Source of the DNA: Candidatus Melainabacteria bacterium
Lineage (GTDB): Bacteria; Cyanobacteriota; Vampirovibrionia; Obscuribacterales; Obscuribacteraceae
Assembly: GCA_003963305.1 (NCBI GenBank)
Contig: RXJR01000017.1
Location: 62,001 to 126,000, forward strand
Reading direction: 5' to 3'
Length of the DNA stretch: 64,000 bases
The translations under genes were made by a program, and so were the position numbers. The notes beneath the pieces were generated by a model. The model did not search any database. It was not told the origin of the DNA and saw only the letters and a program-made list of their open reading frames with translations. Below, one piece after another: positions 45,033 through 46,968 of the stretch. Within the stretch, counting starts at the first letter, position 1; every line of letters starts with the position of its first letter.

Positions 45033-45464
45033 TTACGCGGATTCGACTGGATCAGATTTGATTACACCGCTCTTGTACAGCCATTTCCCGTTTACCTTCT
45101 CAAAGGTGCTGGTTTCAGTAAAGCTGGCGTCCTGGTCTGCTTGCCTGAGATAAGCTGTGAATTTGACAGTGGAAGTGTCTTGTCCGTCTTCGGAATGTAG
45201 AACTTTCAGTCGATCGAAACGCGTGTGTTTGACGAAGTTTTCGATTTCCTTTTGCCAGCGCGGTCTGTCTGCTGTGAATTCCGGATGCTCAGGATGCGTT
45301 GTAGCCATGATGTACTCGCTTAATCCCAGAGCGTAGGCGCAGTACCTTGAACGCATCAGCGCCTCTGCTCTGGCAGGCAACGCGCCTTCGTGATATTGCT
45401 TGCAACATTTCTGGTACAACAGTTTACTGTCGCACGGGCATTTTGCGAACTTGTCCATAGTCAT
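45033..45464 (-). CDS. ychJ: YchJ-family SEC-C motif protein
   Basis: 143 aa. The N-terminal zinc-binding SEC-C motif is visible (KCPCDSKLLYQKCCKQYHEG, C-x-C-x8-CC), then the YchJ signature EALMRSRYCAYALGLSEYIM and TTHPEH, then an NTF2-like beta domain (VKFTAYLRQADQDASFTETS; NGKWLYKSGVI). The second, C-terminal SEC-C motif of some members is absent. Function unknown; SEC-C proteins bind zinc and other macromolecules. Two closely spaced starts (45464 or 45458). It lies 5 nt after the thioredoxin-like gene and is probably cotranscribed. Confidence 0.85.
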   Translation of the reverse strand: MTMDKFAKCPCDSKLLYQKCCKQYHEGALPARAEALMRSRYCAYALGLSEYIMATTHPEHPEFTADRPRWQKEIENFVKHTRFDRLKVLHSEDGQDTSTVKFTAYLRQADQDASFTETSTFEKVNGKWLYKSGVIKSDPVESA

Positions 45465-45469
45465 CCCAA

Positions 45470-46153
45470 TTATCTGTGCTGGTTTATTACAGCAGCAAGC
45501 GCTTCTTCGCTTCTCGGTGGGCTGGCATTATAGAGAACATTGCCGCTTGCATCAAGCATTATCATTCGCGGAATACTTTCCACATTGTATTTGCTTGCCT
45601 GATCCTTGCTCGTATCGAGATCTAATTTTTCGAAGGTGATGTCTCTGAATTTTGAAGTTGTTGCGTCAAACACGGGCGCAAATGTTTTACAAGCCCCTCA
45701 CCAATCGGCGTAGAACTCGATTATCTTTTTGACTTTTGCGGTTGCGACGATGGGCGTCGATGATGCGGATGTTGCCGTGTGAGAAGGTGTCGCTGTGGCA
45801 ACAGAAGATGAAGAACTGCCTGAATACTTTGCTTTAGAAAGCTGATCGAATCCTGATTGCGCCATGCCTCTCAATCGAGCGTCGCCGTTCTGTGTCACCC
45901 AGAGATATTCCGCCTTCGCGCCTTCGATATGACCAAGCGCCTGCTTGCACAGTGCCAGATAGTAGTGAACCATGGCGTTTGTTGGGTAGGCTTGCTTGTA
46001 GATTTCGAATTCTGCGTTAGCCTGACTGTATTTGCCTGCCGTGTAATCGGCAACCGCTTGTTGGAAGCTTACGGGCGCCGCCTCTGAGCATTGATTTGAA
46101 AGTGTCGCAACCACGGCAACTAACAGCAATGAGCCACTGGCAAGTTTTCTCAC
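45470..46153 (-). CDS. TPR-thioredoxin protein with in-frame TGA at the active-site cysteine (selenoprotein candidate)
   Basis: Read through the TGA at 45698-45700, the gene encodes 227 residues. Signal peptide (SGSLLLVAVVATLSNQCSEA), a TPR-like region (YTAGKYSQANAEFEIYKQAY, MVHYYLALCKQALGHIEGA), a Ser/Thr/Ala linker, then a thioredoxin domain: IIEFYADW, [TGA], GACKTFAPVFD. The expected thioredoxin motif WCGxCK therefore reads W-stop-G-A-C-K, the TGA standing exactly where the nucleophilic cysteine belongs. The remaining 75 codons are open in the same frame, with the cis-proline segment NVESIPRMIMLD and the last strand GNVLYNASP intact. Selenocysteine is the simplest functional reading; a recent nonsense mutation or read error are the alternatives. 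Probably periplasmic. Confidence 0.6.
45661..45697 (-). promoter_or_regulatory. possible bacterial SECIS region directly 3' of the TGA
   Basis: Within 37 nt after the TGA the RNA can form one of two exclusive hairpins: UUGCG/CGCAA (nt 17-21 and 33-37, 11-nt loop), or AAACAU/GUGUUU (nt 11-16 and 25-30, 8-nt loop UUGCGCCC). Both lie in the distance window of bacterial SECIS elements, but neither has the consensus G within the first two loop bases, so support is weak. Confidence 0.25.
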
Positions 46154-46321
46154 ACTGTTTCCTCCTGAAGCACGGCTATTATTTGATAAGTTAGCATTTC
46201 ACTTGAGTTCAATTCTATTCCGAAACCAGTTTGAACAATCGGAACTAAAACCCCGAGCCCATGCTCTTATTGACGGATGACAAAAAGTATGACAAACTGG
46301 CATACAGAGAGGGATGATGTT

Positions 46322-46582
46322 ATGCCTGCAACCAGAGAAAGAAAGACTAAGTTCACGGCTAGCGTAAACGAAAGTGTGGTCGCAAGAGTCGACGAACACG
46401 TAGTAAAACTCAAAGTGACTCGCAGTGACATCGTCGAAGAAGCAATGGAAATGTGGCTGCGAAGTAAAACTGAGGAGGAAGAAGAGCGTTATTTCACCGC
46501 TGCCGCCGCTGAAATGAACGCAGACGCAAAGGCTTGGAATGCCTTAACGAGCCGCTCTGCTAAGAATACCTGGAAACGCTAA
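46322..46582 (+). CDS. antitoxin of a MazF-type pair (ribbon-helix-helix-like)
   Basis: 86 aa from the ATG at 46322 (a start at 46277 is possible). The N-terminal half fits a short beta strand and two helices (TKFTASVNESVVARVDEHVV, TRSDIVEEAMEMWLR), as in CopG/MetJ-like DNA-binding antitoxins, and the C-terminal half is acidic then basic (KTEEEEERYF; SRSAKNTWKR), suited to wrap the toxin. Its stop and the toxin start share one base (46582). Expected to repress its own operon with the toxin. Confidence 0.75.
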   Translation: MPATRERKTKFTASVNESVVARVDEHVVKLKVTRSDIVEEAMEMWLRSKTEEEEERYFTAAAAEMNADAKAWNALTSRSAKNTWKR

Positions 46583-46968
46583 TGAAGGAATCAGCAGGTG
46601 TTGCTCCTGCGTTTCCCCGCCGCGGGGAAGTGTGGTTGCTGAATGTAAATCCAATCACACCGGGCGATCCGCATTTACCTAGACCGGTTGTAATAGTCTC
46701 GACAAACCCACGCAATCGTAATTGGGATAGTGTCATTGTTGTGCCATTGAGTACAGGATTGCAGCAGCCCAATGCGAACTTCCACAAACCGATTCCAGCC
46801 GGTCAGGGTGGTATAAATTTGGACTCGCACGCTAGATGCGATCTAGTCAGTAATTTAGAAAAGACTTGTCTGGATTTGGCCAGGGGCCCTCTTGGTAGCG
46901 CTCTTTCGGATTTACACATGTGGGAAATAGTGAAGGGAATTCGCGCGTCTGTTGGAGACACAAACTAG
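46582..46968 (+). CDS. MazF/PemK-family toxin endoribonuclease
   Basis: 128 aa with the PemK-fold signature FPRRGEVWLLNVNPITPGD, LPRPVVIVSTNPRN, SVIVVPLSTG and SHARCDLVSNLEKTCLD, which covers the SH3-like barrel and the catalytic Arg region. MazF toxins cleave single-stranded mRNA at short motifs. The strand-1 motif RRGEVW is intact, suggesting activity. Downstream of and overlapping the antitoxin by one base, the classic coupled arrangement. Confidence 0.88.
   Translation: MKESAGVAPAFPRRGEVWLLNVNPITPGDPHLPRPVVIVSTNPRNRNWDSVIVVPLSTGLQQPNANFHKPIPAGQGGINLDSHARCDLVSNLEKTCLDLARGPLGSALSDLHMWEIVKGIRASVGDTN

Follow-up and report, generated by a model that had tools for sequence, protein, structure and literature searches.

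A predicted selenocysteine-containing TPR–thioredoxin fusion encoded in Candidatus Melainabacteria

Gene organization and domain architecture

The DNA analysed here, a stretch of 64,000 nucleotides (the window), belongs to contig RXJR01000017.1 of a Candidatus Melainabacteria bacterium of the order Obscuribacterales, the genome assembly of which comprises 7.48 Mb in 44 contigs. The minus strand of the window carries at 45470..46153 a putative selenoprotein gene, delineated from its translation, Pfam matches, an AlphaFold2 model and homologues, that is predicted to encode a signal peptide, a TPR-like domain and a thioredoxin domain with a U-x-x-C motif. The gene begins with a GTG start codon (46153-46151, minus strand), preceded by 7 nt by a Shine-Dalgarno sequence, AGGAGG, recognized by inspection (46161..46166, minus strand), and ends with a TAA stop codon (45472-45470, minus strand). 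The open frame is interrupted by a single TGA (45698..45700, minus strand), from which it extends 166 codons back to the previous in-frame stop and 75 codons forward. Translated with TGA as selenocysteine (Sec), the product has 227 residues, and the only internal TGA falls at residue 152, in the context ...IIEFYADW-U-GACKTFAPVF..., the alignment column of the first Cys of WCxxC. The original prediction, that one TGA splits the gene at the thioredoxin nucleophile (W-TGA-G-A-C-K), was thus confirmed.

The C-terminal domain (residues 134-227; 45473..45754, minus strand) was assigned from Pfam and Foldseek. PF00085 matches residues 134-224 with E=3.3e-20, and thioredoxins were retrieved from the PDB by Foldseek at E of about 3e-6. 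Both features of the thioredoxin fold that were looked for, an equivalent of WCxxC and a cis-proline, were found; the cis-proline, P195, is invariant in the alignment, and the window protein retains the terminal strand and helix. The claim that the 75 in-frame codons after the TGA preserve the cis-proline and the terminal strand therefore holds, also in the AlphaFold2 model. The score against the NCBIfam thioredoxin equivalog TIGR01068 is 69.6 bits, below the curated cut-off of 96.8 bits, so the domain is thioredoxin-like and not a canonical free thioredoxin or ordinary TrxA.

The AlphaFold2 model of the window protein has a mean pLDDT of 78.7. Its N-terminal domain is built of five helices with block pLDDT values mostly >90, and the TPR-like helical region (helices at residues 30-107; 45833..46066, minus strand) was delimited by DSSP on the model and by Pfam TPR matches in members of the alignment. 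The window protein itself matches TPR_19 weakly (E=0.01, 16.6 bits, with a Pfam gathering score of 25), and TPR_2 is matched at E<=1 by all 19 family members, the best at 1.6e-6; the best TPR matches in the family reach 1.1e-6 to 1.6e-6. Upstream of the helices, residues 1-25 (MRKLASGSLLLVAVVATLSNQCSEA; 46079..46153, minus strand) resemble a signal peptide by inspection and are modelled with low confidence. The idea of an exported TPR fusion accordingly stands as far as the five-helix model and the family-wide TPR_2 matches carry it; the TPR signal of the window protein is weak, and the export signal was recognized by inspection.

These features bear on where the protein may act. If it were a cytoplasmic selenoprotein that is kept reduced by thioredoxin reductase and serves as a thioredoxin-like reductant, its closest structural relatives would be as observed, the top structural matches being classical cytoplasmic thioredoxins. 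Against this stands the hydrophobic N-terminal stretch that follows RK and ends in SEA-AP, a feature that the window protein shares with several homologues, and a cytoplasmic location is regarded as unlikely. An exported protein with a role in thiol-disulfide chemistry is the somewhat favoured reading.

A ychJ-like gene (45033-45464, minus strand; YchJ_M-like, E 3.4e-27) lies directly 3' of the selenoprotein gene. On its other side, a type II toxin-antitoxin pair at 46277-46968 (plus strand) is divergent from it, with a CopG/RHH antitoxin-like gene (46277-46582, plus strand) followed by a PemK/MazF-like toxin gene (46582-46968, plus strand). In 12 other related loci, ychJ was not a neighbour, and, tandem paralogues aside, no immediate neighbour was shared with the window. 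A functional link to ychJ or to the MazF/CopG pair was rejected, since these neighbours are not conserved, and the inclusion of ychJ in the predicted architecture falls with it.

Selenocysteine machinery, the Sec/Cys column and selection

The genome from which the window was taken was found to encode every component of Sec decoding that the original prediction had proposed to look for: selA (529.8 bits), a full-length selB (336.6 bits), selD (366.8 bits) and a tRNA-Sec with anticodon UCA (71.8 bits). The selD gene carries Cys and adjoins a TusA/DsrE-type gene that is YedF-like by inspection. In four genomes of genus g23, a distance of about 10–19 kb separates the tRNA-Sec gene from the Sec gene, and in genome G022 two tRNA-Sec matches were recorded, on contigs C100 and C17 (70.2 and 54.9 bits).

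Homologues were searched in 99 genomes, including that of the window, and were found in 48. Within the family sample of 50 genomes, 24 have at least one homologue with a single TGA at the CxxC position. In the main subfamily, the TGA occupies the same column in all 21 aligned TGA copies, the window gene among them, and 16 Cys copies have TGC or TGT there. Three further TGA copies (L106, L107 and L108, in G016, G013 and G030, respectively) form a second TPR–thioredoxin subfamily, with the motifs W-U-G-[YP]-C and FxPVWE. As the original prediction had argued, a chance nonsense mutation is improbable given this recurrence in both subfamilies, and comparison of orthologues revealed TGA or Cys at the codon, with no scattered frameshifts or stops. 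A sequencing error is very unlikely because the same TGA appears in about 20 independent assemblies.

Cys homologues are often tandem neighbours of TGA copies in the same genome (G039, G045 and G048); a tandem arrangement of Sec and Cys copies was also seen in G043. Two tandem copies in G007 (L028 and L112) both have the TGA and the same downstream hairpin, and two TGA copies, L042 and L043, have Gly instead of Trp before Sec (HLDG-U-VPC).

The TGA copies also follow the Sec machinery. None was found in the five genomes that have a homologue but lack selA and tRNA-Sec (G008, G011, G015, G020 and G021), versus 22 of the 36 genomes with tRNA-Sec (one-sided Fisher test without kinship correction, 0.016); the value rises to 0.07 when every tRNA-Sec-negative genome is included. 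In G043 and G045, tRNA-Sec was not found despite the presence of TGA copies, these assemblies being 83% and 75% complete. Seven genomes (G001, G003, G010, G022, G023, G025 and G028) have selA and tRNA-Sec with no TGA copy of the TPR–thioredoxin found, and other selenoproteins probably exist in this family.

Substitution patterns were compared between the window gene and the copy in the nearest relative that has one, a member of the same genus; the two are 72% identical. After the TGA, 0.128 non-synonymous versus 0.777 synonymous differences per site were counted, and a similar synonymous excess was observed on both sides of the TGA in other gene pairs. Judged by these counts, purifying selection acts on the part of the gene that follows the TGA. 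This result also bears on the possibility of a dual output, in which translation would stop at the UGA when selenium is low, the resulting exported TPR protein of 151 aa would be functional, and Sec readthrough would be a minority event. Such a product is conceivable in that the whole of the predicted N-terminal TPR domain is encoded ahead of the UGA. Yet the 3' part is constrained as much as the 5' part, which indicates that the full-length product matters, and the Cys homologues yield the full-length form only; the dual output is therefore thought improbable, and a full-length Sec-containing product is preferred.

In a tree of 37 rows, at least three changes between Sec and Cys are required, and well-supported branches make two of these unavoidable; the Sec and Cys labels are strongly clustered relative to shuffles.

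A conserved hairpin downstream of the UGA

A SECIS-type hairpin is predicted just 3' of the UGA at 45661..45681 (minus strand), on the basis of codon invariance and covariation. In the window gene it reads UUGCG - CCCGUGUUUGA - CGCAA. It starts 16 nt after the UGA, spanning nt 20–40 from the U of UGA, in all 21 main-subfamily TGA copies, where a 5-bp stem closes a loop that begins CCCGUGUUUG. The statistics were computed on 19 distinct sequences of the 21, one of them from a near-copy locus. The stem is 100% paired in these 19, and double compensatory changes (UA↔CG and GC↔CG) occur in two of the five stem pairs, in 9 cells, a number reached by none of 500 shuffles and equalled by no slid register. 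All 19 non-redundant Sec copies use the same loop codons, CCC-GTG-TTT; among Cys copies, by contrast, same-residue codons at the loop positions agree in 32% of pairs. The codons up- and downstream of the loop have no comparable uniformity. The hairpin is absent from the Cys copies. In the second subfamily (L106, L107 and L108), a related loop, CC(C/G)GUGUGGG, is located at the same distance from the UGA.

The published model of bacterial SECIS elements specifies a stem of 4-16 bp, a loop 16-37 nt from the UGA, a G within the first two loop positions and an energy of <= -7.5 kcal/mol (PMC13188914). The hairpin of the window gene agrees with the first three, having a 5-bp stem plus an inner C-G pair and a loop 22-23 nt after the UGA, which starts C-G-U if the inner C26-G34 pair is counted. 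Its energy, about -3.9 kcal/mol, is weaker than the limit of -7.5, which is a constraint of the prediction model and not a biological requirement; in five relatives with an extra C-G pair the hairpin reaches -10.5 kcal/mol. When the 44 nt from the UGA were folded as a single sequence, the minimum-energy structure differed from the hairpin and was no better than those of shuffles (z -0.24). The proposed search for a SECIS element after the TGA was thus borne out by a conserved, covarying hairpin, and not by the energy limit for the window gene or by the single-sequence fold.

A covariance model of the hairpin detected one strong site in the source genome (65 bits), the next match (25 bits) not being a TGA gene, and in relatives 21 sites at >=60 bits, all at TPR–thioredoxin genes. 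The low-scoring matches checked in relatives were dismissed as chance, Cys homologues or second-subfamily genes. No Rfam family matches the hairpin. No second Sec gene was found when the source genome was searched with the covariance model and with the pattern TGA-N21-CCSGTGT; of 26 sites, only that in the TPR–thioredoxin gene is flanked in both directions by frames that stay open over a long distance. The formate dehydrogenase alpha homologues of this genome contain no TGA. Separately, a Cys copy in G011, a genome with no selA or tRNA-Sec, scores 37.9 bits with the model (L038, 484-1455) and keeps 9 of 10 loop bases and 3 of 5 stem pairs, which is suggestive of a decayed, fossil SECIS element.

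The hairpin and the TGA column together decide against a pseudogene, that is, an ordinary Cys thioredoxin recently disabled by a nonsense mutation or apparently so through an assembly error. A single TGA interrupting the frame is what such a lesion would look like, but about 20 other genomes have this TGA at the identical alignment position, purifying selection continues past it, and a conserved RNA hairpin follows it in TGA copies only. The conservation of the column and the covariation of the hairpin refute the pseudogene reading, whose residual probability is very small. Still less credible is the idea that in this lineage TGA stands for an amino acid such as Trp or Gly throughout the genome. 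This would account for the internal TGA but is refuted by the use of TGA as a terminal stop, both in the window, where 17 of 46 large ORFs end with it, and among the Sec copies, of which 7 of 21 do; in addition, the homologous residue is Cys, neither Trp nor Gly, and a dedicated tRNA-Sec(UCA) is present. Most plausibly, the two meanings of TGA are told apart by the hairpin.

Proposed function and relation to known selenoproteins

Because the Sec machinery, the Sec/Cys column, the selected hairpin and the constrained 3' half all point the same way, the TPR–thioredoxin gene is almost certainly, as far as sequence can tell, a selenoprotein gene in which the UGA is read as Sec, and the proposal that Sec replaces the first Cys (U-x-x-C) is supported. 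We infer the actual insertion of Sec, as well as export, the catalytic direction and the substrates. In the proposed mechanism, SelA would make Sec-tRNA-Sec from selenophosphate supplied by SelD, and SelB-GTP carrying Sec-tRNA-Sec would bind the hairpin 16 nt past the UGA, so that residue 152 is decoded as Sec. The product would have U-G-A-C where thioredoxin has C-G-x-C, with Sec as the probable nucleophile attacking disulfides and Cys155 as the resolving thiol. The protein would most likely act as an extracytoplasmic (periplasmic) thiol-disulfide reductase or isomerase, the TPR module possibly serving as a docking surface for partner proteins.

What distinguishes this protein from known selenoproteins? 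The Trx selenoprotein family (PF00085, UxxC) is listed as experimentally verified, with WP_010956703.1 as example (PMC13188914, PMC9312934), and shares with the window protein the thioredoxin fold, Sec replacing the first Cys of CxxC and selABCD decoding. No TPR module is mentioned for that family, whereas in the window protein, from Obscuribacterales, a TPR-like domain and, probably, an export signal precede the thioredoxin domain. The thioredoxin-like, TlpA, DsbG-like and thiol:disulfide interchange selenoproteins (PF13098, NF041057, cd02966; PMC13188914) likewise have an active-site Sec and probably function in extracytoplasmic exchange, but these are other Trx subfamilies, and the TPR-fused domain of the window protein is best matched by PF00085 (E 3e-20). 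The Trx7/PDZ selenoprotein (NF041199; PMC13188914) is similar in having a Trx-like domain fused to a protein-interaction domain, although this domain is PDZ and Sec is second (CxxU), in contrast to TPR and Sec first. Closest to home, the Obscuribacterales Cys paralogues (for example L026, L032, L038 and L110) have the same TPR–Trx architecture and are about 35-50% identical, but unlike the window gene they have a TGC or TGT codon and no SECIS hairpin.

Neither the 2022 nor the 2026 inventory (PMC9312934, PMC13188914) mentions a TPR or tetratricopeptide selenoprotein, and the latter mentions no Melainabacteria. UxxC thioredoxin selenoproteins are therefore known as such, while the TPR fusion, export and the Obscuribacterales lineage are absent from both inventories. 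Cyanobacteria have been reported to be without Sec (PMC9312934, PMC1794560). Sec in Ca. Melainabacteria is not wholly unreported: a single passing mention was found in the open-access literature, where PMC9529120 notes that a proteome from Ca. Melainabacteria includes one protein with Sec, PWT95605.1.

A broader evolutionary picture can be put forward tentatively. The TPR–thioredoxins may constitute a lineage-specific selenoprotein family of Obscuribacterales in which Sec and Cys replaced one another on at least two or three occasions, with L106-L108 representing a second subfamily with its own Sec and a related GUGU-type loop, and the window gene is perhaps the main or only reason for which the Sec machinery is kept.

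Overall, the analysis adds a predicted domain architecture, an exported TPR–thioredoxin with UxxC. For Ca. Melainabacteria, non-photosynthetic relatives of Cyanobacteria, it also records a complete Sec system together with a multi-copy family of selenoproteins. Annotation that stops at the UGA truncates these genes. The tandem Sec and Cys paralogues within one genome offer a natural test of the contribution of Sec to thioredoxin.
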